Positions 41,632 to 62,205 of a stretch of 64,000 bases of DNA are shown here, in pieces. The notes beneath the pieces were generated by a model, which worked only from the letters and a program-made list of their open reading frames with translations, was not told where the DNA came from and made no database searches. Source of the DNA: Berberis thunbergii. Its lineage: Eukaryota > Streptophyta > Magnoliopsida > Ranunculales > Berberidaceae. Numbering within the stretch: position 1 is the stretch's first letter; every line of letters begins with the position of its first letter. The stretch lies in the NCBI GenBank assembly GCA_003290165.1, contig QNQO01009168.1:1-64000 (forward strand), written 5' to 3'. The position numbers were made by a program, and so were the translations under genes.

Positions 41632-43409
41632 ATGGCAACGAGGGCTCGAGAAGTCGAGGCATTTATGAAGGAAACAAAAAAGCAATTGATGGAATCATCC
41701 AGTCAAATGGATTGGGTGAAAGCTGAACTCCAAAAGATCTCTGCAAGTCAAGAACACAGTGAACAAAGATTAGATGCAAAAATGGACAAATTAATTTAGT
41801 TGTTTCAGAACACCAAGGTGAACAATACATGAGGAGAATCTAGCAACACGCATGCATCCACCAGCACTGGAAATCAAGCACGAGCACCCACCCTCCCTCC
41901 CGCTGAAATTGGAGGTAACATGTTTCGTTTTCCCAAAATCGATTTTCCTCGTTTTGATGGGTCTAACCCTAGGTCGTGGGTAAAGAAATGTGAGTGTTTC
42001 TTCCATTTGCATAGTATTCTTGATTATTGCAATGTTTTCATAGCCTCTATACATTTGGATGACAAAACATACAATTGGTTTCTCGATTATTAGATTTCTA
42101 AACTTAATGTCTCTTGGCCTGAGCTTATTCATAATTTATGTCTTCGTTTCGAGGACCCTATCACAGACAACTACGTCGATGCCTTTAACAAAATCTTTCA
42201 GGACCAATCAGTAGAGCTATACTATGATCGATTTGAGGAATTAAAATCGCTTATGTTATTGCACACCCCTTATTGACAGAACCCTATTTTGTGCTCAATT
42301 TTCTTAGTGGGTTGAGACCTGATATCAGTTGTGCAAATGTTCAAACCTATTACGGTATCTCAAGCTTTCTCTTTAGCCAGAATGCAAGAATCTTGCACTC
42401 CCACACCATCTCCGGCTTCATCATCTTCTAGTGTTCATAGAAAACAATACAATAACACCTTACAAACCACAAATTGGACTTGGTATAACACAATGTCCAA
42501 TCCACAAATACAACCATCCTCACAATCAGTTCCATTTTCAGGACAGAAACCACCTCTTCCCATTACAAATCAGTCCTTCACGCCCCTCAAATTTTCTTTT
42601 CCCAACCCACCAATCAAAAGGCTTACACCATTTCAAATGAAACTTCACAGCGATAAGGGTTTATGTTATAACTGCAACGAAATATACAAATCGGGCCATT
42701 TATGCAAAACCCAACACTTATACATGTTAATTTCTGACTCTTATCCACAAGAGGAACCACCTCCCTTACTAGCTGATACTGAAAATTTAATAAAAGAAAT
42801 CTCCTCTGATATGGAACTTTCTCTCCATGCCCTTCATGGGAACCCTTCCTCAAATACAATCCTACTCAAAGGCTTCATCAATAAACATCCTATTTCCATT
42901 CTTATAGACACAGGGAGTACCCATTCCTTTGTTGACCCAAAGGTGATTAAAACCACCAATTGGCCTACCATGATTACTTCACAAATGGTTGTCAAAGTGG
43001 CCAATGGCCAACATCTCATTAGCAATGCCATTTGCCAACCTTTGAAATGGTCTATGCAACACCACCAATTTGAAGGTTTGGTTAGAGTGTTACCTCTAGG
43101 GGGTTATGACATGATTTTGGGTGGAGATTGGCTTAAGCCTCTTGGAGACATCATAATCAACCTTCAATCTCTTCAACTAACCATATCCCACCAAGGCCAA
43201 ACCATCACTCTCCAAGGTGTCCATGACACAACCTCTTTGTTCCTCATTGGCCCATTTAAAATCTCCAAATTTCTAAAAAAACACTCCTTTTCATTCATTG
43301 GCCATCTCTTTTCAATAACCCCATCTCATGCTCAACCTCCATATCCACCTCAAGTTGCTTCCCTATCACAAACTTACCAAGATGTTTTTCAATCCCCATC
43401 ATCCATCCC
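41632..43409 (+). pseudogene. Gypsy gag and protease, truncated
   Basis: Gag starts 'MATRAREVEAFMKETKKQLM' (41632) and stops after 56 codons. It continues in other frames through 'FPKIDFPRFDGSNPRSWVKK' (about 41931-41990), the gag core. A long frame (42331-43434) contains a zinc knuckle 'CYNCNEIYKSGHLC' and the retropepsin 'LIDTGSTHSFVD', and ends with 'MILGGDWLKPLGDI' and 'LFLIGPFKISKFLKK'. The element is cut at 43409 by a minus-strand R1 LTR; RT, RNase H and integrase are missing. The last codons of the open frame belong to the R1 end. Confidence 0.9.
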
Positions 43410-45083
43410 TGATATTCACATAATTATTACATAATATATCCCTTAATTTATACATGTTAGTGTTTCGATTATTATATTTTATAGTAATTATTTCGTTTTC
43501 ATGTCTTTGTAGGAATTTGAGCGTAAACGATGAAATCACATTAAAGCGACAAGTTAAGGAACGACAATTAGTCGATTCCAACAGTGGTATAAAGCAGTCA
43601 CAAACCTAAACCCGAAACCTAATTCATAACCTAGTCCATAACCTAAACCCGAAACCTAATTCATAACCTAAACCCAAAACCTAATTCATAACCTAAACCC
43701 AATCCATACCCTAAACCCAAACCAAGCCCAATCCTTCTCCTACCCTCATTGATGAATCATTCCCTCATTTCATCCCTATTATTTTCTATAAATAGAGGAG
43801 AATAGGGTGAGAAGGGAAGAGGAGGAAGAGAAGGGAAAAGAAGAGAATTAGAAATCAAAACTTCTTCCTCAATGGAGATTTCCTCAAAGGAGTTCCTCTC
43901 TCAAAGGTGATTCTCACAAGGTCACCCTCACCACTCATCCATCTCTCACTCACTCCACTCACTCAGCAATCACCACCTCGCCACCACCATCACCCTAGCA
44001 CCATCTCCACCGCCAGACAGCACAACCGCCATCGTCACCACCGTGAAACAGGGGTGTGACAACCCTGTTTCACGTCCAATTTTCACCCCACCACCACTCT
44101 CTGCTCCCCTCCCTTGTCCACCACCTCCGCACGAGTCCCACCACCACAACCTCCGCACGAATTGCTGCGACAAAGCCACCAACCACGCCACGAAACAGAG
44201 CCGCACCGCGACTCTGTTTCGCCTCGCAGACCCTGTTTCCCCTCATTTCTCAGCCTCTCTTAGTCTCGAGCTTCTTCCTGACTCCCTCTCTCGCGACCAC
44301 CGTCACGACCAGACCAAGCACCATCACCGCCACCTCGCGAGACAGAGCTCGCAGCCACAGAAACAGGGAGCCCTGTTCCTCGCCCTCCTTTGCGTTTTTA
44401 TTGATATCTAGCTGTTTTCTCACCCTCTATTTCTCTTTTTCAGGTTCTGGAGATGATTTGAAGACGAGGAAGGCCGCGAGAACAAGCGCTGTCGCGCTGG
44501 AGAAGACGACCGGGCGAGGCAGTACTGTAGCGAGGGCGGGAGAAAGAGTCAAAATTTGTTTTTTGGCTATTCACACCCCCGGTTTTGCTCTGTAGCATTT
44601 TGGGACCATTTCCTCGGGATTCATGCACAACCACCTGCTAATCTGCTGAGTGCCACCACATCGAGTTTGTGACAAACTAAATGGGTTGTATAAGTAATTT
44701 TGATTTATTTTACTGAATTGTGTGCTTAATTGTTAATTACAATTTATTTCTGAATTTTGATAAATTGCTTTCACCTTGCATGTTCGAGAAATTAAACTTG
44801 ATATGTTTGGTAGTTAGAATTACCCTTTATTAATATTCAAAGCATGTGTTAAAAATATTAAGCTTAAACTTTGATTAAGTGTGCCCTAAAAAGACACTTA
44901 ATACTTTGTAAGAGCGTATTTGCTTGAAATAATTTGTTAATGTTTGATAGAAACATGGTATAAGTTTAATTGGATTTTAACGATCACATATTCGGTGTAA
45001 GCAAGGGATTCTCATCCCTAACGCTTCTCGTTTTTAAATTCAGTAATTTAGATTTCAATAATTTTACTAACTCATTGGTGACT
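43410..45083 (-). repeat. R1 LTR on the minus strand, part 1
   Basis: It begins on the plus strand with 'tgatattcac', the complement of the R1 terminus 'gtgaatatca'. It is the inverted counterpart of 54443-55901 and 45360-45482. It carries degenerate 'cctaaaccc' repeats (43605-43720). It is interrupted after 45083 by the plus-strand R1 solo LTR and resumes at 55902. Confidence 0.8.
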
Positions 45084-45499
45084 TGATGCGGGTTTAACTA
45101 ACCTAAATTAATAGGTTAATTTAACCCACTTGTAATAACCGCAAGTGCACGGTGCCTAACTGGTAGACAACAGCAAGTACGGGTCGATCCCACGAGGAAG
45201 GTGGATGCAATTGAATTTTAGAATTTAATTAAACTAATTTATAGGAAATGGGGTTACAGTGTTTTTTAAAACTAAACTAAAAATAAATTAAAGATAAGAA
45301 AAATAAAACAAAATAAAATGATAAGATGGATGGAATGGATTTTGTGTGGTTTGGATTCACCGATGAGCTAACAAAAATATATTTAAATCTAAATTACTGA
45401 ACGAGAAGCTTTAGGGATGAGAATCCCTTGCTTACACCGAAGATGTGATCATTAAAATTTCAATTTCAATCATATCAAGTTTCACTACACCAAAAGGGC

Positions 45500-45695
45500 T
45501 GATTAGCTACACAGGGGTGGCCACGGTTCTAAGCCGTTGGTGTGTTTGCCACGGCTAAAAACCGTGGCTATAGTTCCCAACGGCTTAAAACCGTGGCTAA
45601 AAAAGGCTTGGCCACGGTTCTAAACCGTTGGTGTGTTTGCCACGGCTAAAAACCGTGGCTATAGTGACCCACGGCTTAAAACCGTTGCAAACGTG
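45500..45695. repeat. CACTA left subterminal repeats
   Basis: About ten direct and inverted copies of 'ccacgg.taaaaccgtggc'-type words, for example 'gccacggctaaaaaccgtgg' at about 45550 and 45640. Subterminal repeats are the known transposase-binding sites in CACTA elements. Confidence 0.85.
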
Positions 45696-46608
45696 CACGT
45701 GCGTTGCACGTGAAGGTGTGGAGAATTAGGTCGATTTCAGGCGGCTGAAATTTTGCGAAATTTTTTTTCTTCCCGCGCGTTCCCGCTGCATCTCCCCCTT
45801 TTCTCAACCCTTTGCTTCTCCATCTCCCGCTCCATCTCCCCCTTTTCAACCCTTTGTGAAAAAACCCTAACCTTTCACGTGATTCTATCAAGAAGTCCTC
45901 ACAAATGGAAGACAGAAAAAATAGGGATTTAGAAGTTATTTGCAGATGCAGAAGGATACTTAAAGAGAGAGAATGAGGCTACTAAAGGAGGGTCGATTTG
46001 GGGTTGATTCAGGGTATGATTCGAGGTTGATTCAAGGTTGTTTTAGGGTCTGATTTAGGTTTGTTTCAGGGTTTGATTTGGGGTTGATTCAGGATCTGAT
46101 TCGGGGTTGATTTATGGGTCTGATTCAGGGCTTATTCTGGTTTGTTTGATGGTTGTTTCAGAGCGTGATTCAGGGTTGTTTTAGGGCGTGAAAAATGATG
46201 TTTCGAAGGGGTATTGAAGGGTTGTTCCAGGGGGTTTTCAAGGGTTGTAACAGGATTTTTAAGGAGCTGTTGCATGCAGTTTAAGGGGATGTTGCAGGGG
46301 GTGTGAAGGAGCACTTCCAGGGGCATGAAAAGAGTAGATGCTGCTTGTTGCGTTCCTGTGTTACAGAGGAGGAAAGAAGTCAGATTACTTTTTTCATGCT
46401 CTGTAAGATTTTATTGTTTTTGGAGGAGATTAATATGAATTTAATATCTGGCTAAACCCTCCAACTAATGTTGAGGAAGAAGCCATTGTTATAGAATCCA
46501 TTAAATAAATTGTTGCTAAAAAAAAAAAAAAACCCTAAAATTTCAAGGAGAGGGAAACAGAGAAGGAGAAGGAGAAGGAAAGAGAGAGGGAGAAGTCGAG
46601 CAACCCAA
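45696..46608 (+). other. CACTA interior: unidentified sequence and minisatellite
   Basis: 45696-45990 is unrecognised, with a possible 5' leader ('ctccccctttt' repeated). 46000-46320 is a degenerate minisatellite of words such as 'gggttgattcagggtctgat'. 46515-46605 is a GA-rich stretch with 'aaaccctaaa', possibly the leader of a captured gene. Confidence 0.5.
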
Positions 46609-46707
46609 GCAGTGTCTGTGTTTGTACAAGCAACAAAACGCGATGGGGTTTGGCCATCTAGCCATTCGAGCTTCGAGATCCTCCTCCTCCTTCGCAGCCT
46701 TCAATCG
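46609..46707 (+). pseudogene. NDUFS1: Captured NDUFS1 start (99 bp)
   Basis: This matches the leader and first 22 codons of the NDUFS1 copies in this window (6290-6390, 29456-29554 and 56996-57094). It starts at 'gcagtgtctgtg', includes the ATG and 'MGFGHLAIRASRSSSSFAAF', and stops sharply after 'ttcaatcg'. The near-identity points to recent capture from NDUFS1 or one of its copies. Confidence 0.92.
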
Positions 46708-46839
46708 AGGAGTTTCTCTTCATCTTCCAATCACCATTGGGTTTGGCCATCTCTAAACTTTTTCCTTCAATTTAGGTTTTTATTCGTCAACTATGATTTC
46801 CTTTCTTGTTATTGATTTGAGCCATCTTTTAATTCAATT

Positions 46840-46888
46840 TTTTATTTTATTTTATTTTATTTTATTTTATTTTATTTTATTTTATTTT
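46840..46888. repeat. (TTTTA)n microsatellite
   Basis: About ten units of 'tttta' lie in the intron-like sequence before the COX6A exon. Confidence 0.9.
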
Positions 46889-46923
46889 TTCAACTGTGAA
46901 ATGATGGAATTGGTTTTGATCAG

Positions 46924-47195
46924 ATGAGACGGCGAAATGGGAAAAGATAACATATCTGGGAATCGGTTCTTGCACCATCTTGGCATTCTACAATTTGTCC
47001 AAGGGTCATCCCCACTTTGAAGAGCCTCCGGTAAGTCTTTTACTAATTATTTTCAATTGTATGACTGTGTTTCTTATTTTGGAAATGTAGCTAGCTCGTC
47101 TCTTTAACTTTGTATATTAATCATGACGTCGTCCGTTTGATGAATCTTGCAGGCATACCCTTATTTGCACATCAGGAACAAGGAGTTCCCCTGGG
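46924..47195 (+). pseudogene. COX6A: Captured COX6A exons
   Basis: Cytochrome c oxidase subunit 6a is a small inner-membrane subunit of respiratory complex IV. Exon 46924-47030 reads 'ETAKWEKITYLGIGSCTILA' then 'FYNLSKGHPHFEEPP', the membrane helix and loop. Exon 47153-47195 reads 'AYPYLHIRNKEFPWG', the family hallmark. GT-AG borders are intact. The presequence exon and the C-terminal exon are missing. A 46-bp (TTTTA)n repeat precedes it. Confidence 0.93.
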
Positions 47196-48311
47196 GTAAG
47201 TTTAGATTTCTATATATATATATTTTTTAATGTTTTAAGCTCATTGAAAATTGAAAACTTTTCATCTATTAAGCTTAATATTGTAATGGCCTACTGAGAA
47301 TAAAATCTATTGAATTTGGGTACATGGTTGGTGCACTAAGTAGTATGATATGATAGAATTTTAAGTTAGATATCCAAAGTTTTGTGCTCCCAATTCTGCA
47401 TGAATTCCTTCATTTCAATAATCTTGTGAATAAAGCACCATTTCATGCTTTCATATTTTTTTTCTTTTCTTTAATATTACTTGTCCCCCATCTTCCCATA
47501 GATCGTCGAAGTACCTCCAAAACAAATTAAGTGAAAGATTATATAAAGTTAATATTTGCGGTTTGTTTGACCCAGTGTCATCATTATCACCTGTGTAACA
47601 ATGATATGCGTAGTCGGCTACACCTACATGTGTCCTTGTTGGACTCGTGTATGAATGTCAAAAACATCAACACTCAGAATTCTCACTACTTGGGATCCAT
47701 GCAAATGGAGTGCATAGTTTTCAAATGTACGATCATTCTACTATTTATATTGGAATTGAAAAGGCACCCCAGGTCTTCTTCTTCTCCTTCTCTATTACCC
47801 CTTTCTCTGTCTCTCTATTGCTTGGTTTGGTTTGGGTTCCATTTCTCTGTAAGTCGCAAATTGGGTGATTTGATCGAATGGGTTAATTGGAATGTTGGAA
47901 GAGATGCAAACCCAGTGCTGGAAAGAAGGTTAGATCTTCTCTATTTATTTATTTTCAAGTTTTAATTTTTTTAGGACTATTTGGGTATAATATTTTTGTT
48001 CTAATTGTTGTTCTTTGTTTCAGATTTTGGAGAAGTTGTTGAAGAGGGGTGGAAAGCTTAAAGGTTTTGTCCTTGTCTCTCTCTCTCTTGTTCTTTCTCC
48101 ACTGAATGTTTGTTTTCATGCTTTGTGCATTGCTTTTTGTTTAAAATTAGAATTTGGGTATATTTCAATTTGTAAAATTGATCAATCTGTACCCTTGGTT
48201 TTTTGGGGTTCTGTTTAGTTGTTAAAGCTTAATGGGTTTTTTTTTTTTTTTTTTTTTTTTTTTGTATGAAAGTGATTTGATCTTGTTTGGGTTGTTTGTT
48301 TTTGTGATTAG
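47196..48311 (+). other. CACTA interior: introns and unidentified exon-like pieces
   Basis: Exon-like stretches at about 47860-47928 ('EWVNWNVGRDANPVLER' in one frame) and 48024-48060 ('ILEKLLKRGGKLK' or, in another frame, 'DFGEVVEEGGKLK') have splice-like borders, but I cannot assign a gene. A segment from 'attgaaaaggcaccccaggt' on (47755-47808) is a duplicate of 48401-48452, the end of the next exon plus its intron. A poly-T tract is at 48237-48263. Confidence 0.5.
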
Positions 48312-48416
48312 AAGACCAAGCCATTCTCCCTCATTCGCCAAGTCTATGATGATATTGCTGGGCATCGATGTTTTGGCGAAAACTATGTGCAGGAGTTAAT
48401 TGAAAAGGCACCCCAG
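48312..48416 (+). pseudogene. Captured PLP homeostasis protein (YggS/PROSC) exon
   Basis: One 35-codon exon reads 'KTKPFSLIRQVYDDIAGHRC' and then 'FGENYVQELIEKAPQ'. This is a signature of the pyridoxal-phosphate homeostasis protein, a single-domain TIM barrel that binds PLP. AG and GT borders are present. An extra 'DI' in 'YDDIAGHRCFG' may be a small insertion. The lysine that holds PLP lies in the preceding residues and is not fully covered. Confidence 0.9.
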
Positions 48417-48479
48417 GTCTTCTTCTTCTCCTTCTCTATTACCCCTTTCTCTTGTCTAAAACCAAATGCATGGTTTCAT

Positions 48480-50070
48480 TGATTTTATTAGGGTCAAGGT
48501 TCATTCCCATAATTCTTCATCATCTTCAAATGGTCGAATCATGTTAGCATGATAAAGTAGAAATAGATCTTCATCCCACTCACATAAAGCCCTTCATTTT
48601 TATTTGTTACTTATATCAATAGGACACATGTTAGCATGATAGAGTAGCATCGATACAATTGGAATATATTAAATGGTTGAGGATCCGCATGTACTTCCTC
48701 AATATTTTTTCTCCTTTCTTATCAGAACTAAAAATTTTCAATGCATAGAGTACAAAATACATATATTAGCATGAATCCAATCTCTGCCTAATAAAGTTAT
48801 AAAATTAAGTGCACCATCTATGACAAAGAATGTTTTCTCTGAATGGTTTACTCCTAACTATTATTTCTAATGGCACAATTTTTTTGGCCATCGTTTTATC
48901 TTTCCAATAATCCAGAGATAGTAATCCTGGTTGTCACTAACTCAACATCTTGTTTATTTATTTTCTTCGAAGTATTAGTAATAATGACTGATGCATCATT
49001 GTCTACTAATGCCATGTTTTAAAAGTTTTCCATTAAACCCTTTGATAAATAGTGGTTTTACATTTAACCATTTCTTGAGTTGGTTCTTCATAAGTATAAG
49101 GCAAGTTGGCAGAAGTTGAATAAAACTGTGGAGTAGTCACCTCTTCACTCTCATTCAATCAAATCTCTAAATAATCTGAACCAGCAGGAATGTTCTCCAT
49201 TTCCTTAATTCTCCTTTGCAGCAAATGTCTAGCTAATGTGGTAGCCATGCTTTTCCAAGTCAATGAGCATATCTAGCAACAAATCATTTTGTAAACCTGT
49301 GTTGACATCTTCCTTTATTTTTCCAAGTTCCATGTACTCCTCCATGTCATCTCTAATAAACCTCGGATTTGGTTTATTAGAAACAGTTTGCACATAAAGT
49401 ATTTTTTTTTTTTATATTCCTCTTGTAAGTCCATGTCAGTGCTGAACTGGGAGTAGGAGATTTCAACTCAGTGACACTCCATTTTGTTTAGGCTTCACAA
49501 ACTTGTGTTTATCCTTAATAGATAATGCTTGCTTGCTTTGGACTATCATTGGATCCTGCAAAATAAATCAGTCAGGTACACCAGTATTAATCCTTTGGGT
49601 GGATGTTTTGTAGTTCCAGGCCTGTTTATTAAGGTTTTTTGCCTTTGATTTTGCTCTAATTTGACTTCATGCAATCTAGGCCAGCAATGAAGCCCATGCT
49701 CAGTCTTTCAAAAATAGGTTTGTTGAACTTAGTTTCCCTAGGTAGGACTAATTGTGGTTCATTAACTTTCATTTTCTTGTGACTTTCTTCACCTGGGAAT
49801 TCACTGCCACAAGCTACACATTAGTGTTGAACACAAATGTTGGTTCCTTTAAATACTCCCTTGTTGGACTCGTGATTTACATTACCAAGATTCACACGCA
49901 TTTCATTGGCCGTTTGGAATGTATCCTTGACAATTCCCATTGTTGAGTCTGAAAACTTGAGTTTTTCCTTTTTTCAGCAACTCTTGAATTTTGTTTCTAG
50001 AATCAAAACATTCATTTGCAGTGTGAGACCAGGAATCATATCATATCATACACACAGTCACTGACACCCA
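48480..50070 (-). pseudogene. Gypsy gag scrap inside the CACTA element, minus strand
   Basis: The minus strand near 49960-50040 reads 'YDSWSHTANECFDSRNKIQE' then 'LLKKGK', resembling the zinc-knuckle and linker of a Ty3/gypsy gag ('HTTNECFQLR'-type). Upstream pieces look like degenerate gag, with frames heavily broken. I see no LTR. The extent is uncertain; only the 49960-50040 part is well supported. Confidence 0.55.
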
Positions 50071-50467
50071 TAATTGGTATGATAGGCTGGTGGTCAAATT
50101 TGATTCATATTGGTATATGTATGTCATATTTGATTCAAGTTTAGCACTAACTATAGATATGTAATTGCTACATGCATGTTGTTCTGGTTCTCATTTTCCT
50201 CCCTTGTCTTTGCACACAGTTAAGCAACTTCCCATCTATCTATTTAAACATTTATGCCATTTGACATGTTTTTGAGAGTTTACATATTTGCATTGTAATA
50301 GAAATCTTTCCACCTCAATGTTTACCAATATAAATGATCATATCTTTCCACCATTTGACCTATACACCATATTTTGGATTCGAAAGCAAATTTTCTTGTA
50401 AATTAAATTTTATTTTACTTCTTTTCTTTATTTTTATTTTACCATTTGACCTAATGCTGCACTTTCC
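50071..50467. other. CACTA interior: intron-like A/T-rich sequence
   Basis: No coding signal beyond chance open frames. It ends with 'tttccag' before an exon-like stretch. Confidence 0.35.
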
Positions 50468-50635
50468 AGAGTGCTCAAGGATTTTGAAGAGCATCCTATG
50501 GTTAGATCTTCATGCTCTTGATGCATGCAGCTGTACTGTGGAGTTGCTGCAGGCTTGCACGCTGTCTCTTTGGACAGATTTGTGGGGCTTCTTGTATTAT
50601 GTAGCACCTGGAATATTCAGGACAGCAGGAACGTT
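50468..50635 (+). pseudogene. Unidentified captured exon-like fragment
   Basis: One frame reads 'VLKDFEEHPMVRSS' and, after a stop, 'QLYCGVAAGLHAVSLDRFVG' then 'LLVLCSTWNIQDSRN'. Another frame is open across 143 codons (50334-50765). I cannot assign a family. AG and GT-like borders and the codon-like composition suggest a real captured exon. Confidence 0.45.
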
Positions 50636-50695
50636 AAGTCCTTCTTCTTTTCTAATTTTCCCTGTCTTGATTTGTATATTTTATTTCTTATGCAG

Positions 50696-50803
50696 TCCCA
50701 TATTCGCGTACTTGAATCAACTCCAGAAAATAAGTCTTTACTTCTCTTGGGACTTGAATATTTGATTGGTATCTCATATGTTGACGATACCGAGGTTTTC
50801 AAG
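50696..50803 (+). pseudogene. XPO1: Captured exportin-1 (XPO1/CRM1) exon
   Basis: A 36-codon exon with AG/GT borders reads 'SHIRVLESTPENKSLLLLGL' then 'EYLIGISYVDDTEVFK', a conserved HEAT-repeat segment of the nuclear export receptor CRM1. Only this exon is recognised; the remaining about 1000 residues are absent. Confidence 0.9.
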
Positions 50804-51441
50804 GTGATTATTCATATTCTTTCCTTGCTGCTTCTTGTTCTACTTTGGAAATTGTTACAAAGTAAAATTTATCTACTTTTATCTGATACACAGGTATGAA
50901 CCAATTCCATTTCCGAAATTTATCTACGTTTATCTGATTTTGGGATGATACAGTAACATGAACCGACTTTTCTTTTTCCTTAGGTATGTGTTTGGAACAC
51001 CATAGATCAGCAACAGTGGTGGAAAGAGTGCAGTGCCTCATTGCCTACTCCCACTAGCCACTAGGCGAGACTCAGCTCCACCTGCGGGGATTTATTATTA
51101 TTATTATCATTGTTGTTTCTGTCATTACTTGAGTTTTGGCAATAAAAATGATTTTTACACAACCATACACTTGATCACTCTAATGTGTTATCATTTGAGT
51201 TTCAACTGTTTTTGTTAGTATTATACCATTGACTTGATAAAGTTCAGTATGAAAGTTTTTGTTTCAGTGCATTGGAAGACAATGTCTTTCTGCACTTTGT
51301 CATCTTGTTGAATGGGATCAAAGATAGTTGGACTTGTCAATTGCTAACCTGCACATTATTAGTGATGTTACCTGAGTTTGTTTTTGGTCTATTTATAGAT
51401 TACCTTGAGTCTAACCATGTGCATGATCTGGTATTGAACAG
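50804..51441 (+). other. CACTA interior: introns, no assigned gene
   Basis: A possible exon near 50985-51050 ('VCVWNTIDQQQWWKE') has an AG before it but is not assigned. The rest is A/T-rich. Confidence 0.4.
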
Positions 51442-51990
51442 GGTTCCAAGACTAACAAGTGGAAATTGATTGTCAGAAATCTCCCTTTCAAGGTTATTGA
51501 TTAAAGCTTCTGTTAGTTCACTTACCTTTCCTCTTCTTGTTATAAGCCTCCTTAAAAATATTTCCAACTATAATGCAGGCTGGAGTTAATGAGATCAAAG
51601 ATATGTTTTCGTCAGTGGGTTTTGTGTGGGATGTTTTTATTCCAAAAAGTTTGAGACAGGGTATATGTCAAAGACCTCTGACTGCTTTCTTCTTTAAAAC
51701 ATGGTTGGCTAATGTCTAAATGTAGTTTCTTTATCCTTTTGCTTTGCAGATTATCTAAGGGTTTTGCATTTGTTAAATTCACGTCCAAGCAGGATGCAGA
51801 AAATGTATAATCTGTAACCCACAAACTTTATTCACACTAGTGAATCACTGTTATCTTTTTTCATTCTGTTAATATTCTATTTCAGGCCATCCAAAAGGTT
51901 AATGGACGGATATTTCATAAAAGAACCGTTGCTGTTGATTGGGCAGTTTCGAAAAAGTTATATACGGCTGGTACAAATGCTAACAAAAAC
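51442..51990 (+). pseudogene. Captured RBM28-like RNA-binding protein exons
   Basis: Four consecutive exons encode one RNA recognition motif. 51442-51492 'KWKLIVRNLPFK' (RNP2 region); 51579-about 51660 'AGVNEIKDMFSSVGFVWDVF'; 51750-51804 'LSKGFAFVKFTSKQDAEN' (RNP1 KGFAFVKF); 51886-about 51980 'AIQKVNGRIFHKRTVAVDWA'. This layout and the 'AVDWA.SKK.Y' tail fit RBM28/Nop4-like nucleolar proteins that act in 60S ribosome assembly. The join of exons 2 and 3 is one base out of frame, so the copy is not simply translatable. Confidence 0.88.
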
Positions 51991-52974
51991 TTGATCACTC
52001 TAATGCCTTTTTGTTTTTTTTTCCTGAAGTATGAAAGTTTGGAGTTGAATATTTCATTACCCCTTTTTTGTTTTTTTTTGTTTTCGTTGTATATGCTTCT
52101 GTTTTAACTCAGCAAATGATGTTGCACACAAGAATTTGTTTGGAAAGTTTACATTGACGTATGTCGGCATATAATATTGAATTAATGTCAAGTTAGTTTC
52201 TTGGCCTCAAAATAATCAGATGTGGCATATTTTGCAATGAAACTTTCTTTGAACCTTGCACTTGAGTCGTATCAATAATTTTGCAATGAAGTCATCTAGG
52301 ATTGTGATTCCGTTAAAGTTCAGTATCACTTTCCTCAATCAGTTCACATAAATGTTCGTTGTTATAACTTATGATCCTTGTTGATCTGATCAGGATTTTT
52401 CATAACTTGCGATTACTTTTCTAAGTGTAAAATATGTGTTACACAACTTTCTTCTAGTTTAGGTAGAATTAAAGTTGGTAGACTTGTTTAGTTACAACTT
52501 TTTTTGTTTTCATACGTTTCTGGTAATGTTGAAATGGGATAAGTATATGACAAAAGAATTGATACAACTGTATAAAATGGATAAGGTTGTGCTTGTTAGG
52601 GTTTGTAACCCTTGTCCCTTGTTGTGACCAATGCCTACCTGAAGGATTTTTATATGTCAATTGATTTTATCTTTGTAAAAGAATCAATTTCAGCTGAATC
52701 ATGCTAGGTTAACAAAACATTTTGCGATGCCATTTTTTTTTTTTGATTCTCGCTTTCAAAGATGTGCCCTTTGTCCACAGTTTTGCTGATTCTAAGGTTC
52801 CTTGTAAAACCTTGTGATGTAGTTACTGATAGATCGAGGATTGCAGATTTCAGTGATGCATATTGGAGAAACTTCTAGCACAGTGAGAAAGTTGACAAAC
52901 GTTGTTTATAAAGGATTGTTGGATAAGTGAGGATTGCAGATTTCAGTGATGCACATCTCTTGGTCAGATTTCAG
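51991..52974. other. CACTA interior: A/T-rich, no gene
   Basis: No exon is recognised. 'attgcagatttcagtgatgca' occurs twice (52842 and 52933), a local duplication just before the kinesin exon. Confidence 0.4.
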
Positions 52975-53132
52975 AAAGCGCAAAGATCAATCAATCGCTA
53001 TTTGCATTGTCAAATGTAATCTATGCTCTCAATAACAATCAACCACGAGTGCCTTATCGAGAAAGCAAATTGACTCGGATATTGCAAGATTCTCTTGGAG
53101 GAAACAGTCATGCTCTGATGATTGCTTGTTTG
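52975..53132 (+). pseudogene. Captured kinesin motor exon (KIN-10-like)
   Basis: The exon reads '[20 protein letters not shown]' then '[20 protein letters not shown]' and '[11 protein letters not shown]', the switch II helix and the '[15 protein letters not shown]' signature of kinesin motors. AG and GT borders are present. The ALNNN.PRVPYR variant resembles plant KIN-10/KIF22-type kinesins. The ATP-binding P-loop and the rest are missing. Confidence 0.9.
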
Positions 53133-53626
53133 GTACGAGTTTATAATCATTCTTTTTAACTATCACTGTACATTTATTTAGTTATTTTCCATGGAAAAAA
53201 AAGTCAAACACACCCTTAAAAGGGTCTTATTTTGAAATCATTTGTTGGGGTTATTTTGGAGTGAACGAAGAGGAACAGAGTCTATTTGCAAAGAACAAGT
53301 CTATTTGCAAAGACATACCTTCCATCCAAACAGAGTCTGTTTTGAAAGTATACAGCTGCTCTGTTTTTTTATTCCAGAACTGGAAGAAGAAGAAGTGAGC
53401 TTCATTGCTCTCTCTCTGTTTTTCGTTTCGAAGAAGCAATCACACTGATCAGAGATTTACTCTCATCTGCTCTGTTTCTCTGTTTTTCAGGTTCAAAAAG
53501 GTATGTCATTGGATGACTTTCTGATATTTGCAAAGAACAAGTCTATTTGCAAGGTATGTCTTTGTTTCCATTTTCTTTCCCAGTTATGGTAAATATGATT
53601 CTAAACTGCAATTCTATACTTTGCAG
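53133..53626 (+). other. CACTA interior: intron and duplicated segment
   Basis: The phrase 'tttgcaaagaacaagtctat' occurs at 53286 and 53528, so a segment has been duplicated. A possible small exon 'VQKGMSLDDFLIFAKNKSIC' (53490-53555) is not assigned. Confidence 0.45.
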
Positions 53627-53760
53627 ATCACTATCTCCTGTTCGATTTTCCTGGCCAAGTTGAACTGTTTTTCCTTCACTCAAATGCCAAGAGCGTTATC
53701 AGTAAACTCATAAAGAATGCCGGAGCAGCAGGATTTTGTTTTGGTGCTGGAAACCAATAA
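53627..53760 (+). pseudogene. Captured GPN-loop GTPase exon with new end
   Basis: This reads 'DHYLLFDFPGQVELFFLHSN' then 'AKSVISKLIK', the switch region (DFPGQ.E) of GPN-loop GTPases of GPN2 type, which help to assemble RNA polymerase II. After 'LIK' the frame runs into 'NAGAAGFCFGAGNQ' and a stop at 53760, unlike the family. This suggests a junction with other sequence. The P-loop exon is missing. Confidence 0.9.
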
Positions 53761-54034
53761 ATACGGTTTCAGTTGAAGCTGCTCGATGTTTACTGTTTAT
53801 GCTTCTACATTTTTTCCTTTTTTTTTACAAATTGTATCGCTGATGAGCAAACACAGCGAAGACAATGGGTCTTACAAAACCAAGTTTAGTATGGAAAAAG
53901 ATCTTTAGGTTGGATCTAGCAATATTTGAATTACATTACTTTGCCTCCATTATTTGATAGATTTTGACTCAACAACTCAAAGTCATTTGATAGCAAAAAA
54001 AAAAAAAAATTAAAAAAATTAAAAATAAAAATTT
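53761..54034. other. CACTA interior: A/T-rich 3' part
   Basis: No gene is recognisable. It includes poly-A near 53996-54025. Confidence 0.4.
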
Positions 54035-54420
54035 TTGCCACGGTTTTAAACCGTGGCTAACTATTGCAACGGCTAAAAACCGTGGCTACCTTGCCACGGC
54101 TTAAAACCGTGGCTATGATTAGCCACGGCTTAAAACCGTTGCTACTTAATTAGACACGGTTTAAAACCGTTGCTAGTGCTTTATCACGGCTTAAAACCGT
54201 GGCTATTTTTGCTACGGCTAAAAACCGTTGCTATGCTTATTGCCACGGTTTAAAACCGTGGCTAAATGTTGAAAATCATCGCCCCTGTTCAAGCATAAAA
54301 CCGTTGCTAAAATTTAGCAACGGTTTTTAAGCCGTTACAAAGAATTTCGCGACGCTTCTGTAGCCCACGGCTCTTAGCCGTGGCAATGGGTTACGCCCAC
54401 GGTATAGAACCGTTGCTAAT
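54035..54420. repeat. CACTA right subterminal repeats
   Basis: At least fourteen inverted or direct copies of 'gccacggtttaaaaccgtgg'-type words, often each palindromic in itself. They are denser than on the left side. Near the end the words change to 'cccacggctcttagccgtgg'. Confidence 0.88.
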
Positions 54421-55901
54421 GGGGGTTTTTGGTGTAGTGTTTCTTTTAAACATTAACAATTTATCTCAAGCAATTGAACTTTCACCAAGCATTAAGTGTC
54501 TTTTTAGGGCACACTTAATCAAAGTTCAAGTTTAAAACTTTTTAGCATATGCTTTGAATATTAATCAAAGGTAAATCTAACTACCAAACATATCAATTTT
54601 TAATTGAACATGAAAGGTGAAAGCAATTAATCAATATTCAGAATAAATTGTTGTTGAACAATAAAACCTTAATTCAGTAAAATAAATTTAAAATAATTCA
54701 AACCCAAGTAGTTTATCACAAGCTTGAGATGGTGGCACTCAGCAAATCAGCAGGTGGATGTGCACGAATCCCGAAGAAATGACCCAAAACCCGCTCTGTG
54801 GTGGTACAGAGCAAATTCGGGGTGGAAATAGCCAAAAACTGAATTAACTAAATCCCGCCCTCGCTACAGTGCTGCTACAGTAGCAGCGAGGTCCGGTCTT
54901 CTTCTCCAGCGAGACGGCGGCTCTCGCGGCCTTGTTCTCGCTCCTCGCGGCCTCCCTCGTCCTCGAATTGATGCTAGTACCTGCAAAAGACTAGAAAACC
55001 ATGAAAAACCATGAAAAACAGCAAACAAAATAGAGAGAAACAGGGAGGAAACTCCCTATTTTTGCTTCCTGTCGCGACTGTTCCCGCGGAGTTCCTTCGT
55101 TCCTCGCGGCCTCCCTCGTCCTCAGAGTGATCCTAGAACCTGCAAAGATGAAAGAAGTGAAGAAAGACCAAATAAACAGAGCAAATTCGGGAGAGGAAAC
55201 TCCCTGTTTTCGCTCCGTTTCCGCTCGGTTGCGAGCTCTGTCGCGGCTGTTCCCGCGGCCTGTTGTGGTGGTTGGACTCGTGCGGAGGTGGTGATGAAGG
55301 TGATGGATGATGTGGGTTGAAGGACGGTGAAGATTCGGGTGTGAAACAGGACTGTCACGTCCCTGTTTCACGGTGGTGGCGGTTGTGGGTCTGTTGCGGG
55401 GTGGCTGATCGTGGTGGAGGCGGAGCTTAGTGGTGGCGAGGTGATGATGCTGGGTGGTCTGAACAGAGAATGAGTGAGAGATGGATAGGTGGTGTTTTGT
55501 GATGAGAATCACCTTGAGAGGAGGAAGAGGTTTTGATCTTCAATTCTAATCTTTTCCCTTCTCTTCCTCCTCCTCCTTTCTTACCCTATCGTATTCTATT
55601 ATAGAGAATAATTAATGAGGGTAGGAGAAGGATTAGGTTTGGATTTGGTTTTAGGGTATGAATTAGGTTTTGGGTTTTAGGGTATGAATTAGGTTTAGGT
55701 TTAGGTTTTGTGATTGCTTTATATCACCATTGGAATCGACTAATTGTCGTTCCTTAACTTGCCGCTTTAATCTGATTTCGTCGTTTACGCTCAAATTCCT
55801 CTAAAAATATGAAAACAAAATAATTACTATAAATATAATAATCGAAACACTAACATGTATAAATTAAGAGGTATATTATGTAATAATTATGTGACTATCA
55901 T

Positions 55902-56061
55902 GACTCCAAGCCACAAAAACCCATTTCATCTATCTCTTATTTTATTTTTCTTATTTTTAATTTATTTTTAGTTTAGTTTTAAAAATGATGTAACCCCATT
56001 TTCCATTTAAATTAGTTTAATTAAATTCTAAAATTCAATTTAATCCACCTTCCTCGTGGGC
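55902..56061 (-). repeat. R1 LTR on the minus strand, part 2 (5'-truncated)
   Basis: This is the complement of the 5' region of R1 (matches 45195-45355 inverted) and continues the copy at 43410-45083. It stops at 'cctcgtggg' (56061), where duplicon 3 begins. The R1 5' end is therefore missing at the junction. Confidence 0.8.
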
Positions 56062-57030
56062 CAGATTGGTCACCCTGGTCCAGTTCAGAAAACTGGTCCA
56101 TCTGTTTTTGGCTATTTGCACCCAGCAGAATGTGTCTAAGCCACCCTGATAAAAAATTCAGAAAATTAAATAATGGACCTTACATCAAGTAAATCCAGTA
56201 CATTACTATGGTCCATTATTTATTTATTTATTTATTTTATTTTTCTCCAGGCAATTTATTTGAGATTTTAAATTTAAATATTTTGGGATGCATCTAATGA
56301 CTTATTTAGTTTGTCTAACATTTGATTAAACTTATTGAAATAAGATGTCACCCTTATGTAAATTAATTTATTGAGAATGTTAAGATGTTTGTGTTTGTGA
56401 GTTCATGCGGATATTACTCGGCCCAAAGGAATGATAATATTTGGCCGAATTGCATACACACCTGTAGTGATAAATATGTGACAATTATTAGGGTTTCATG
56501 TGAATAATAAGCCGATCCAAATATAAACTTATTGTTTGACGTGATTTATTGTCAATATTTGATCACCGCACCAAAGAGTATCATTTACAAGTTAATATTA
56601 CTGTCAAAAGACTTGATATTAATGTTGTGTTAGGTATCTTGAGATATATTCTATAATTGTCTACAACACAAGTGATTAACAATAGCACATGTCCATAGCG
56701 TTTTTTGGACTTGTGCTGTCAAAACCAATCTAACTTCAAAAGATAGCGTTTTGAATACACAGTGAAGCAGAGAGGGAGACAAAAAAAATTTACGCGCGCG
56801 CGTTTTTGATTGATTTCATCTCCTCCCTCGCGAGTTCTCCCTCACAAGAACTCCCTGGTGCATCGCTCTCTGCTCTTTGGTCTACTGCATCGCCTAAGAG
56901 ATGAACATCTCCTCACTAATAAACACCTCGCTCTCCACTTCACATCACATCTCATCTCCTTCTCCTCTCCCCCAACCCAAACAACCAAAACACAGTGCAG
57001 TGTCTGTGTTTGTACAAGCAACAAAACGCG
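56062..57030 (+). repeat. Duplicon 3 start: block B end and NDUFS1 upstream region
   Basis: This is collinear with 5385-6324 and 28535-29490: the 'caccctggtccagttcagaa' phrase, the tail of block B, the stem-loop (about 56685-56720), the 'acgcgcgcgcg' tract and the CT-rich leader. The abrupt start within the R1 LTR suggests a recombination breakpoint. Confidence 0.65.
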
Positions 57031-57761
57031 ATGGGGTTTGGCCATCTAGCCATTCGAGCTTCGAGATCCTCCTCCTCCTTCGCAACCTTCAATCGGTTCT
57101 CCTCTAGGGTTCTCGCATCCTCATCCAATTTCAGAGGAATCCTCTCCACCCTAGAGGTTTAAAACCCTGAAGCAAACGCAGCGGAGCCAACCCCTGAAAT
57201 TCACCCTCCACGAATCCCTGTAGCTGGAGCTAGGGTTCATCTCCCCAACCCCGATGAAGTAATAGAGGTTTTCGTCGATGGGTACCCAGTCAAAATTCCT
57301 AAGGGATTGACTGTCTTCCAGGCTTGCGAAGTCGCCGGGGTCGACATTCCTCGGTTCTGCTACCACAGCCGCCTCTCCATTGCTGGGAATTGCAGGATGT
57401 GTTTGGTAGAGGTTGAGAAATCGCCCAAGCCGATCGCTTCCTGCGCCATGCCCGCTCTCCCAGGTCAGATTTCATCAACGTTGATCACAATCTTTTTTTT
57501 TTTTTTTGTTGGTCTAACTTGTTTGGGTTGTTTTTTTTATTATTCTTCATGTCAGGTATGAAAATTATGACGGATACTCCTATTGTGAAGAAGGCTCGTG
57601 AAGGGGTTATTGTGAAGATTTCCCATTTGTGATCACGGTAGAGAATGTGATTTGCAGGATCTGTCTATGGCATTTGGATCTGATCGTGGGCGGTTCATTG
57701 ACGTTAAGAATTTGGGGCTGTTGGTGAAGACAGTGACGACTCGTTGTATCCAGTGCACAAG
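57031..57761 (+). pseudogene. NDUFS1: NDUFS1 5' fragment, copy 3
   Basis: Exons 57031-57463 and 57556-57761. Exon 1 carries the shared TAA (here after 'LSTLEV') and keeps '[20 protein letters not shown]'. Exon 2 is more damaged than in copies 1 and 2: after 'KKAREGV' a deletion and frameshift remove the His/Cys cluster ligands and bring in 'IVKISHL' and a stop. A further deletion drops 'RSVVEK'. It is non-functional. Confidence 0.92.
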
Positions 57762-58025
57762 GTTTACACCTTCCTTTCTATTCTTTGAATGCTTGAAATT
57801 TATGTAACCAAGGACACTTCACACATGAAAATGGTTACTTTCTAATGGGTGTTAACCTGTAAGTCGCTCAATTGATAGGTTATGAGATTCTTAAAAATTC
57901 AGCATGCTTTTAAAAAAAAAAAAAGTAAAAGTACAATGTAGTGTACAATCATAAAATATAGACCTCATAATTCATTTTCCCTTTATTTACTGTGCGGGGT
58001 GATTCCTGGTAAACATGGGGCGAAA
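57762..58025 (+). other. Intron remnant after NDUFS1 copy 3
   Basis: The counterpart of 7096-7370. No exon is present. Confidence 0.45.
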
Positions 58026-59240
58026 AAAGACAAAAGAGTTGGGTTCTCTAAACCCAATTAGGTCGAACGAAAATGTACGATTTATCCATGCCGAGTCTTT
58101 CTTCCGCTCCGAATTCTCCTTCAACTCTTAGGTACGATTTTCTCCCACATCTTCAGTCATATTTTCAGATTTCCGATTATTTGATCAAGATTAGCGTTTC
58201 CTTCTTGATACGTTACTGATCTTGTTTCTTGATGAGATTAAAATTGGAATTGTAATTAGTAGAGATTTGGTATAGTTTTATCAGAATTGCTAGAAATTTG
58301 TGAAGCGGCAAATGTTGTGGTGTGGTGTGGCTTTTGATCCAAAAACATGGTTTCTTTCTTAATACAATTTTATCCATGCTTGTTGAGATCAAATTTGCAG
58401 ACTAGTTTTGCCCGAATAGCGAGAAATTTGTCAAGTAGTAGGTTTTGATTAAGATTGGATGGATACTTTTCAAGTATAGTTTTCAGTGTAATTTCGTAGT
58501 TTAGCATAGCTAAATTTACAATGAAGAAAAAAAAGCTTTATGAGGTATGCATTTATGATTTTCCATTTTCAGGTGAAGCTTTAAAATTTAAGAGAAACAA
58601 CAATTTTTGTACTGGTATATGGATCACATAAGAAGGGAAAAATTCGTCGGGAAATTTGGATGACTGAGTGGCTCCTACCACTTTGAAACTGTGTTAGGAT
58701 GGGGATGGGTGGCTGCCTAAACATCTTAGTAGTCCCTATGTAATGAAAGGCGACCTCTAGGTACTCAGTGTAATTTACATTGGCTCCTTTTGAATAGGGG
58801 CACCACCAAAGGCTGTCGTCAAAGGCGCTCACTTAGGCATCGTCCAAATTACCTACCCCTGTACTACGCTAAGCACATGCACAACACATTTTTGTTTTTG
58901 TGAAACTTCGTTACCAAGAACAGGTCTCATTTTAAGGAAAGGAGTTGATCCTACGGTATTGAAGACATTTGCAGAGTGTGAAAAGTGGCTAGCTTTACAT
59001 GTTGCGGGCAATGATGTTGTTGGGACTTGGACATAGGTCATTTATAGAGATGTTGAAGAGCTTTGGGAGATGGGCATGAAGGTTCCTGCAGCATTTTTCA
59101 AGTGACTCTGAACTTCCAAGTATTTGTCATAAAATGAAGTTCGTCATCAACTAAAGCTGTACTTGACCAATTCCAGCTGGAAATTGGTGTTGGATCAAAG
59201 TTTTCCTGGAATTTTGGATTAGAATGAAAGTTGACAATAC
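58026..59240 (+). pseudogene. Unidentified gene remnant, copy 3 (deleted, with extra part)
   Basis: This is collinear with copies 1 and 2 up to about 59080. It then joins, at 'cctgcagcatttttcaag', to sequence that lies about 820 bp further on in the other copies. The copy reads 'TVLKTFAECEKWLALHVAGN' (tryptophan codon intact where others have a stop) and then 'VIYRDVEELWEMGMKVPAAF'. A piece missing from copies 1 and 2 follows, reading 'VRHQLKLYLTNSSWKLVLDQ' (about 59140-59202). The copy therefore preserves more of the lost gene. I do not recognise the family. Confidence 0.5.
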
Positions 59241-59386
59241 CATTTAAACACTTGCTTGTTTTTTTTTTTTTTTTTTCTGGTTTTCTGTCATGACAGGAGA
59301 AATTTTTTTTTACTAACAGACTGTCATTACGTTAAGTTTTTATTTATAGAAGCATGAAATAGATAACATTGGTTGCATGGATCCAG

Positions 59387-59819
59387 GCATATGTTTTTCA
59401 AGGGAAATCAGGAGATTGTGCTGCATTTCTTGTAAATAGTAATGATAAACAAGAAGCCACTGTGCAATTTCAAGATGCATTGTATGACTTGCCTCGACAA
59501 TCAATTAGTATCTTACTCAAGCATCTGATGCTCAACCTAAATTTCATGTCGACACTCTTGGGCATGTTGTGCATGTTTATGTCAACAACGTGTATGTAGG
59601 TGAGTTTCTGTTCTTGTTCTCAACAGGCTGAAGAAAATTTGATAATCAATTAAGTTGTCCACGTTTTATCAATTTAAATTGATGATAATTTCCTTTGCCA
59701 TGATCCTAGGAAATGCTCATGGGAATCATGACAATCCGGGATGCACAATCGAGCAACCCGTCCAACTAAACAATGGAATGAACAATGTTTCAATAGTTAG
59801 TGTCATGGTTGGGTTACCG
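59387..59819 (+). pseudogene. Beta-galactosidase (GH35) fragment, copy 3
   Basis: Exons 59387-59599 and 59710-59819, as in copies 1 and 2. The same exon fusion and frame change follows 'SISIL'. 'NAHGNHDNPGCTIEQPVQLN' keeps the CAA codon that is a stop in copy 2. Confidence 0.87.
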
Positions 59820-60570
59820 GTACTAATTCTAACGAATGTCCTGCTGTAATTTCTTTAGTTTTCAGGGGTCTACGTAAATAACATATTGCATGATGAGTAC
59901 TTACATATCCTATCATCGGGAAGAAATCTGCAAGATACACAGACAAGTAGTTGTTTTTCTATGAAGAAATCTGAAATTCTCAATTTGGGTTTGATTTTAA
60001 ACAGTGTTGTTGAGTTCCTTCCATAATGTAACTCTGCATGATGAATACTTACATATCCTGTTATTGGGATTTACAACTTCCATACTTGTTTTTCTCAGTT
60101 TTAATGAAAAGTTTTGTTCCACCAAAGAAAAAAAAAATCCTTCCCATACATTGATTGAGACAAACCCTGGAATTTCTTATTTACACTTGGATAAAGTTGC
60201 TGAACACGCTAAAATAAAAGATAATGTAACTGAGTTCCAAGGGAATTTGTAGTTTTAATTAGCAAAAGATGTGATTATAGAATCGACTGCAATCACATAC
60301 ACCAAAGACTTTAGTCTTTACCTCGAAAATCCAAAAGAACTAAAAAAGCAAACAAAAGGTACGAAGATTGACTTTTGTACACTATTTAGGCTTGTAATGG
60401 TGAATCCTCTCTCTCGTGTGAGATTGTTTCTGTATTTGTTTTGTTTCATTAACATAAAGGTTAAGGAGTCCTTAAAACCCGGTTTGCTTTTAAAAAAAAA
60501 AAAACACATGTTTATATCCACATCCGTAGATAAAAAAGAAGTCAAGTGTTGACAAGTGAAATAAGAAAAA
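59820..60570. other. Region between beta-galactosidase and EH-C
   Basis: This is near-identical to 32965-33715. There is no gene. Confidence 0.4.
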
Positions 60571-60613
60571 TTCTGGAGAGCCAGGTGCCTAGCGCTAGGG
60601 GAGCTCTCTAGAA
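60571..60613. repeat. Palindrome downstream of EH-C
   Basis: 'ttctggagagcc' and 'gctctctagaa' flank 'cctagcgctagg'. The counterpart of 11832 and 33716. Confidence 0.6.
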
Positions 60614-60634
60614 AATGATTATAAGTGAGAGTGA

Positions 60635-60640
60635 ATAATA

Positions 60641-60680
<40 letters not shown>
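60635..60680. repeat. (AAT)n microsatellite
   Basis: About 15 units with one interruption. It is shared with copy 2, with a different unit number. Confidence 0.9.
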
Positions 60681-62137: not shown

Positions 62138-62192
62138 CGCGAACTCGCTTATCTCTCTCCCTCCTTATCCTTCTCTACAACTTAATACTGAG

Positions 62193-62205
62193 TTATATAT
62201 ATAAT
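62193..62205 (-). promoter_or_regulatory. TATA box of EH-C
   Basis: 'ttatatatataatg' at the same distance from the ATG as in EH-B; the surrounding leader is identical except for one base. Confidence 0.6.

Follow-up and report, generated by a model that had tools for sequence, protein, structure and literature searches.

The 64-kb window analysed here (positions 1 to 64,000 of Berberis thunbergii contig QNQO01009168.1) contains, at 45483-54439, a stretch of ~9.0 kb in which exons and introns of several host genes lie between CACTA-type ends; features are listed in Table 1. The preliminary description of this DNA had reported matched CACTA ends, a TTT target duplication and dense subterminal repeats, and each of these was recovered. 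The terminal inverted repeats are exact inverses of one another, and the only two perfect matches to CACTACACCAAAA in the 64 kb are these ends themselves. The subterminal unit of 24 nt is present in 14 copies, and the subterminal motif is matched 11 times in one 500-bp end bin and 20 times in the other, with 0-2 matches in each of the remaining bins. Helitrons have neither a target-site duplication nor terminal inverted repeats and insert between A and T, and the inverted repeats and TTT duplication found here do not fit that description. No match was obtained when viral contigs were scanned with a single 20-base subterminal pattern, and an Rfam search of the element at gathering scores produced no match.

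The window abounds in repeats and duplications, and the element lies in repetitive DNA.

When the flanks at 45357-45482 and 54443-54933 are joined, they can be aligned, straight through the joint, with the inverse strand of the segment at 44470-45081. In this paralogous empty site 506 of 587 aligned positions are identical, a single TTT is present and the element is absent. Past insertion of the element is shown by this paralogous site. A window so full of repeats and duplications might suggest that a stretch rich in gene fragments is flanked by two unrelated CACTA ends by chance, or that the arrangement is an assembly artefact. Given exactly inverse ends with the same TTT, subterminal zones that are alike and an empty site whose joint falls at precisely these ends, we consider this exceedingly improbable.

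Table 1. Coordinates of the element, its captured pieces and related sequences in the window.
Feature	Position	Strand	Remarks
Inverted paralogue of insertion site without element (empty site)	44470-45081	-	Flank alignment
Target-site duplication TTT, left copy	45480-45482
Left terminal inverted repeat CACTACACCAAAA	45483-45495	+	13 bp
Left subterminal repeat zone	45520-45693		5 of 14 copies of 24-nt unit, at 45550-45693
Degenerate 11/23-bp tandem repeat close to left end	45989-46186	none
NDUFS1 piece	46609-46707	+	99 bp; 5' leader, first 21 codons and 2 bases; DNA match to window copies
COX6A exon-1 end	46708-46737	+	Encodes RSFSSSSNHH; abuts NDUFS1 piece directly
Second NDUFS1 sequence copy, between COX6A pieces	46739-46752	+	14 bp
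COX6A exon 2	46924-47030	+	AG/GT sites
COX6A exon 3	47153-47195	+	AG/GT sites
55-bp perfect duplicate (PLP-protein exon end and intron start), first copy	47754-47808	+
PLP homeostasis protein exon (YggS family)	48312-48416	+	2-residue insertion relative to YggS and its yeast relative
55-bp perfect duplicate, second copy	48398-48452	+	In place at PLP exon/intron border
Exportin-1 (XPO1/CRM1) exon	50696-50803	+	AG/GT sites
RBM28, four consecutive exons with introns	51442-51970	+	Exons b and c one base out of frame at canonical sites
Kinesin motor exon	52968-53132	+	Pfam Kinesin 5.1e-22; closest solved relative KIF22
Exon-like piece without named donor	53491-53553	+	Open frame, AG/GT
GPN-type GTPase exon (ATP_bind_1)	53627-53715	+	AG acceptor retained; GT absent where homology ends
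Right subterminal repeat zone	54037-54421		9 of 14 copies of 24-nt unit, at 54039-54421
Right terminal inverted repeat, exact inverse of CACTACACCAAAA	54427-54439	-	13 bp
Target-site duplication TTT, right copy	54440-54442
Nearest NDUFS1 pseudogene copy	56997-57762	+	2.6 kb from element; candidate donor, or closely related to the donor

Host-gene pieces and coding capacity

Seven donors had been named for the interior, and support was found for all of them: for NDUFS1 by DNA comparison, for COX6A, XPO1, RBM28 and the kinesin by good protein evidence, and for the PLP homeostasis protein and the GPN-type GTPase more weakly. The pieces range from ~30 to 530 bp and derive from unrelated genes. As had been claimed, all gene pieces are on one strand (7/7 donors on the plus strand; two-sided sign test, 0.016), and the donors read from the shorter, left subterminal zone toward the longer, right one.

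The COX6A pieces gave a best protein match at E 1e-29 with 86% identity, the 30-bp exon-1 piece being weak when taken alone (best E 0.045); the top relatives among the 120 matches listed are Bauhinia and Lupinus, none above 86% identity. For RBM28, translated exon by exon across the frame break between exons b and c, the best match was at E 2.3e-50 (79%), and among the 120 matches listed Capsicum was the top relative and no identity exceeded 86%. That query also included the XPO1 exon, and the matches listed reflect RBM28 and are uninformative on XPO1. The XPO1 exon itself matched the Pfam CRM1_repeat (1.5e-8); against PDB it had no match at E 0.001, the best match to CRM1 there being at E 0.41. 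The PLP exon matched the YggS family TIGR00044 at E 2.3e-7, a score far under the full-length cut-off, and its peptide had no match in Pfam. The GPN exon matched ATP_bind_1 at 5.9e-6, its 26.7 bits falling just below the cut-off of 27, while in PDB its peptide scored best against epoxide hydrolases (E 0.05-0.08), ahead of a GTPase (0.24) and of GPN3 (0.55). At least two further exon-like pieces without a donor had been proposed; one was recovered, at 53491-53553, and a second was not established.

The absence of a transposase domain was upheld within the set scanned: comparison with Pfam gave no transposase match for nine exon peptides or for 26 whole ORFs (20 + 6), out of 81 stop-to-stop ORFs of at least 45 aa. 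The other 55 lay outside the whole-ORF scan, and all but one of them are shorter than 70 aa. Of the 18 ORFs of at least 70 aa, 17 were scanned whole, and the remaining one contains an RBM28 exon. The longest ORF in the element is 144 aa, and the element is presumably mobilized in trans by a transposase encoded elsewhere. Gag-like motifs on the minus strand at ~48500-50300 had raised the idea of a decayed Ty3/gypsy gag; this candidate was dropped when seven peptides from the region gave no retroelement match in Pfam.

Taken together, the matched ends, the 3-bp target-site duplication, the empty site, the subterminal repeats, the failure to find a transposase and the seven donors in one orientation back the original reading of 45483-54439 as a non-autonomous CACTA (Pack-CACTA) transposon carrying the seven named host-gene donors, to which we assign a probability of about 0.9.

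The NDUFS1-COX6A patchwork and the acquisition of the pieces

The NDUFS1 piece was identified by its DNA. The window holds three NDUFS1 pseudogene copies, and with every one of them the 99 bp agree at 98 of 99 bases. Each mismatch is private to a single window copy, and the element piece carries none of them. Protein searches were uninformative for this piece: the peptide from 46643 had no match in Pfam, NCBIfam or PDB, and tblastn with 120 NDUFS1 proteins gave one chance match at the piece, at E 8. The best NDUFS1 relatives among the 120 matches listed are Thalictrum, Macadamia and Ranunculus, with identity never above 86%. An interpretation of this stretch as a COX6A transit peptide in another frame was overturned by the comparison of DNA within the window.

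Because three pseudogene copies with the same sequence surround the element, at least the NDUFS1 jump was probably recent and local, or else the element later moved only a short distance. The piece could instead derive from a functional NDUFS1 gene elsewhere, the nearby pseudogene copies being coincidental. The element lacks every change that is private to one of the window copies, as such an origin would allow. We nonetheless hold this origin to be the less probable one, given that the region occurs three times in the 64 kb, at its closest 2.6 kb from the element.

From 46609 to COX6A exon 2 at 46924 the order of pieces is NDUFS1-COX6A-NDUFS1-COX6A, with the NDUFS1 and COX6A pieces joined in different frames. 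Perfect repeats of 55, 28 and 17 bp, spaced 242-820 bp apart, also lie inside the element; such long-range repeats number three in 8.3 kb inside as against one in 55 kb outside. Short-range direct repeats (at most 148 bp apart) account for five of the element's eight repeats and are about as common in the controls, with 2-7 in each of five control stretches of the window, so that only the long-range repeats argue for template switching.

This patchwork, the long-range perfect repeats and the absence of internal relics of element ends lead us to favor, short of proof, template-switching DNA synthesis over fusion of neighboring elements. Synthesis of this kind would have stitched the pieces in by jumping between donors and back, and may have been triggered by repair of a gap or of a stalled fork within the element. 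In the end-fusion model, attributed to Catoni et al. 2019 by PMC8903248 and PMC13317346, neighboring Pack-CACTA insertions are mobilized through the outermost of their ends and take along the chromosomal DNA that separates them. These sources suggest it for Pack-CACTA and other Pack-TYPE elements on the basis of local insertions in the same orientation, and the NDUFS1 donor-like sequence close to the element would suit it. We think it unlikely here, since the interior consists of ~30-530-bp pieces from genes unrelated to one another and not of a stretch of a single locus; moreover, inside the element there is no match to the terminal inverted repeat with fewer than three mismatches and one match to the subterminal motif (within 46001-54000), and the DNA beside the NDUFS1 piece is, on both sides, unlike that at the three window copies.

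More specifically, NDUFS1 may have been captured in place from the surrounding duplicated pseudogene block, through repair-coupled template switching that shuttled among NDUFS1, COX6A and other genes, a scenario that we put forward tentatively and regard as rather doubtful. If true, it would make this a Pack-CACTA "caught in the act", with donor, capture border and empty site all readable in 64 kb, and seven donors all sense to the element's own transcript would amount to a mobile exon cassette.

Splice sites and reading frames

The captured interior is genomic DNA, introns included. AG/GT borders are present in 10 of 10 complete exons, the borders having been placed at the nearest such sites. 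The PLP, XPO1 and RBM28 a-b exons join in frame. An in-frame PLP-XPO1-RBM28 chimera was considered and rejected, as canonical sites break the frame between RBM28 exons b and c. With a one-base frame offset between these two exons, nothing in the sequence indicates a chimeric protein under selection. Were the element transcribed from its left end, the precursor RNA could be spliced into chimeric RNAs, by analogy with soybean Tgm-Express1.

A selected exon cassette, in which the single orientation and the kept splice sites were maintained for a benefit to the element or the host, would draw on the strand bias, the intact AG/GT sites and the in-frame joins, and has a precedent in wheat 3B, where 19 CACTA-captured genes (13%) are reported to be expressed with dN/dS <0.4 (PMC4290129). 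We judge it very unlikely, as RBM28 exons b and c do not join in frame, NDUFS1 and COX6A join in different frames, and recent capture without selection would account for the intact sites.

Relation to known gene-capturing elements

Elements of this kind are already known, and the Berberis element is a rich new example. The view that so many donors in one copy is unusual holds in part, with multi-donor Pack-CACTAs described from soybean (PMC1947982) and maize (PMC8903248). The soybean element Tgm-Express1, found in the wp allele of F3H, is described as a CACTA transposon that holds exonic and intronic fragments from several host genes unrelated to one another, with splice sites of the canonical type, and its pieces are spliced into chimeric transcripts (PMC1947982). 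It is 5.7 kb long and has five donors, whereas the element here measures 9.0 kb and has seven, and the donors themselves are different. It sits in a host intron, whereas the Berberis element lies among repeats; the two are alike in kind rather than in family. In Japanese morning glory, the Tpn1 family likewise comprises non-autonomous CACTA elements with conserved ends, subterminal repeats, captured host genic interiors and 3-bp target-site duplications, with one exception reported for the last (PMC5105172). According to that account, 339 copies of the family are catalogued, the average length is 7,081 bp and chimeric transcripts are known; its terminal inverted repeats are 28 bp, compared with 13 bp exactly matched here, and its tandem repeats are longer (122/104-bp).

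In Arabidopsis, rice and maize, Pack-CACTAs and the other Pack-TYPE elements are also non-autonomous and carry gene fragments between terminal inverted repeats (PMC8903248). In that report, maize Pack-CACTAs contain the most distinct loci among Pack-TYPE groups, with donor number growing with element width, and in rice multi-locus elements are given as significant only for Pack-Mariners. The origin it proposes is tandem insertion and re-mobilization, whereas the signs inside the Berberis element are more in line with template switching. Animal Pack-TIRs, for which gap filling or FoSTeST is described (PMC8277862), resemble the Berberis element in small captured pieces and in the template switching proposed here, and differ in belonging to animal and not plant genomes; microhomology and a bias toward nearby (cis) duplication are reported for them. 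Two models have thus far been put forward for the acquisition of several donors, end fusion in plants and template switching for animal Pack-TIRs. To the multi-donor Pack-CACTAs already dissected, the Berberis element adds one with seven donors in a single orientation, and its DNA-level donor match with readable borders, its empty site and its patchwork within a few hundred bases provide a concrete test case for both models.

Element ends and insertion site

The element at 45483-54439, a non-autonomous CACTA transposon (Pack-CACTA), has CACTACACCAAAA at its left end and the exact inverse of this sequence at its right end; the 64-kb window contains no other perfect match to CACTACACCAAAA, and TTT stands on either side of the element. 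A 24-nt unit occurs 14 times in the element (nine at the right end, five at the left), and 500-bp bins outside the end bins contain 0-2 subterminal motifs each. Host sequence here forms an inverted repeat, and the element is inserted in one of the two arms. The insertion is directly demonstrable from the empty site: 45357-45482 and 54443-54933, when joined, match 44470-45081 in reverse complement, in an alignment that runs through the joint with 506 of 587 aligned positions identical and one TTT at the joint. Given the inverse ends, the TTT on both flanks and the alignment of the joined flanks with a single TTT, the coordinates, CACTA ends and TTT target duplication proposed in the preliminary description are right.

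The inverted repeat arms around the Pack-CACTA, at 43410-45483 and 54438-56060, are 70-83% alike. The element is thus inserted into an older repeat, and parts of that older repeat recur near 1016, 21614 and 25530. A second CACTA-like family is represented by four left ends (CACTACAAGAAAA at 2355, 14439, 22959 and 26873), each followed by a GCGACGGTTTCCAAAAG-like repeat, with one reading ACGACAGTTT; its inverse end, TTTTCTTGTAGTG, was not found within the window. Retrotransposon remains were observed at 17718-19373 and 42316-43434, comprising RVT_2 with a retroviral SH3-like domain, presumably Copia-like, and an RVP_2 protease, presumably Gypsy-like.

Captured exons and the remaining interior

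Pieces of NDUFS1, COX6A, a PLP homeostasis protein, exportin-1, RBM28, a kinesin and a GPN-type GTPase were all recovered on one strand, in agreement with the seven donor genes described previously.

Gene pieces and exon-like pieces within the element
Feature	Position	Strand	Evidence
NDUFS1 piece	46609-46707	+	98/99 bases identical to each of 6291-6389, 29457-29555 and 56997-57095
COX6A exon-1 end	from 46708	+	short, weak alone; best E 0.045
COX6A exon 2	46924-47030	+	tblastn match (E <= 10) by 120/120 fetched COX6A proteins
COX6A exon 3	47153-47195	+	tblastn match (E <= 10) by 117/120 fetched COX6A proteins
PLP homeostasis protein piece	48312-48416	+	TIGR00044, 2.3e-7
Exportin-1 (XPO1/CRM1) piece	50696-50803	+	CRM1_repeat, 1.5e-8, above cut-off
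RBM28, four consecutive exons	in 51442-51970	+	best E 2.3e-50, 79%
Kinesin piece	52968-53132	+	PF00225, 5.1e-22
Additional exon-like piece	53491-53553	+	no gene assigned; open frame, AG/GT
GPN-type GTPase piece	53627-53715	+	ATP_bind_1, 5.9e-6; 26.7 bits vs cut-off 27

The COX6A protein search gave a best E of 1e-29 at 86% identity; 303 of its 305 candidates reached E <= 0.001, and PF02046 matched above cut-off (6.8e-6). For RBM28, 481 of 673 candidates reached E <= 0.001, and many among the best 120 matches listed bear the name RNA-binding protein 28. The PLP piece, which scores 30.6 bits on TIGR00044 against a full-length cut-off of 106, matched a yeast homologue (E 0.0004) and YggS (E 0.002), and its Pfam search returned no match. 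In PDB comparisons the exportin-1 piece matched CRM1 alone, weakly (E 0.41), the search with the GTPase piece was uninformative, and the closest solved sequence to the kinesin piece among the 120 matches listed was KIF22, a kinesin-10.

With borders placed at the nearest AG/GT sites, all ten complete exons, the piece at 53491-53553 included, are preceded by AG and followed by GT; the GPN exon has its acceptor AG and no GT at the end of homology. Since introns are present, the captured material was genomic DNA rather than cDNA. The shared direction of the donors (7/7; two-sided sign test, 0.016) is suggestive, not more. The NDUFS1 and COX6A pieces are in different frames at their junction, and the second and third RBM28 exons, despite canonical sites, are one base out of frame; with frames broken at both places, nothing in the sequence points to selection for a chimeric protein.

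Six-frame translation of the element gives 81 stop-to-stop ORFs that reach 45 aa or more, the longest of 144 aa. No transposase was matched in Pfam among the 26 ORFs scanned whole or the nine exon peptides, consistent with the earlier statement that a transposase domain is lacking. The whole-ORF scan covered 17 of the 18 ORFs of at least 70 aa, the remaining one containing an RBM28 exon; the other 54 outside it are all shorter than 70 aa. About 2.2 kb of the interior (48453-50690) holds no assigned gene. Minus-strand peptides near 49906-50040, which we take to resemble a Ty3/gypsy gag zinc finger, had no Pfam match.

NDUFS1 copies and the duplicated block

Three partial copies of a duplicated block occupy 1-13419, 24563-38483 and 56062-64000, mostly 90-98% alike over long matches, each with an NDUFS1 fragment. 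By Pfam, the middle copy also carries a minus-strand alpha/beta-hydrolase gene, presumably epoxide-hydrolase-like, and a beta-galactosidase domain. The NDUFS1 copies (6325-7096, 29491-30260 and 57031-57762) represent the start of the gene, matching only residues 1-234 with the Thalictrum protein as query. All three stop at one common place, before NPEA, and are therefore pseudogene fragments; the third has additional indels. NADH-G_4Fe-4S_3 was detected in the second copy and Fer2_4 in the third, both being closest among solved structures to the complex I NDUS1 chain of 6x89, presumably from a plant; the top protein match of the second was Thalictrum (80%). Within the 800-bp NDUFS1 part the copies differ at 16/804, 44/765 and 39/763 positions. 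The pseudogene probably predates the block duplications.

The element sits between two block copies and includes a piece of the NDUFS1 region that they contain. The single mismatch of each copy to this piece is private to that copy, and the element carries none of the three. Either the piece was captured here, or the element shifted a short way after capture, or a functional gene elsewhere was the donor. As donor-like copies lie close to the element, we somewhat favor a local link with them.

Route of capture and known systems

Two routes of capture were considered. In end fusion, neighboring Pack-CACTAs enclose chromosomal DNA, as outlined in the available text of PMC8903248 and PMC13317346. 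This route appears unlikely, as no end relics were found inside the element (46001-54000), where the subterminal motif matched once; the six matches to the terminal inverted repeat there each have 3 mismatches. At <=3 mismatches the whole window has 46 such matches against 28.8 expected, an excess due partly to repeats outside the element. Alternatively, the pieces would enter by template switching, with repair synthesis or a stalled fork jumping between templates, as the available text of PMC8277862 describes for animals. At the NDUFS1/COX6A alternation, 99 bp of NDUFS1 is followed by ~30 bp of COX6A, a 14-bp second NDUFS1 copy and the lead-in DNA to COX6A exons 2 and 3, and a perfect 55-bp copy of the PLP exon/intron border lies 644 bp upstream of that border. 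Counting exact repeats of 14 bp or longer whose copies lie no more than 1 kb apart, the interior has eight, whereas 200 dinucleotide shuffles average 0.07; five control stretches from elsewhere in the window have 2-7 each, all <=148 bp apart. Because the controls also contain short-range repeats, only the three long-range repeats (242-820 bp) are special, three in 8.3 kb inside the element against one in 55 kb outside. The absence of internal end relics, the alternation, the 55-bp copy and these three repeats lead us to prefer template switching, with a probability of about 0.6.

Like the element, Tpn1 of morning glory has 3-bp target duplications and elements whose interiors are replaced by captured genic DNA, according to the available text of PMC5105172. 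In maize, Pack-CACTAs are the Pack-TYPE group with the most distinct loci, and the number of loci correlates with element width (available text of PMC8903248), and 140 CACTA capture events are reported for wheat chromosome 3B (available text of PMC4290129). The element thus belongs to an already known kind, the CACTA with captured genes. We found no CACTA with a higher donor count per element in the literature as available, the maize counts being given in the supplementary tables of PMC8903248. Beside the Tpn1, maize and wheat cases, a content of seven donors within 9 kb looks high.
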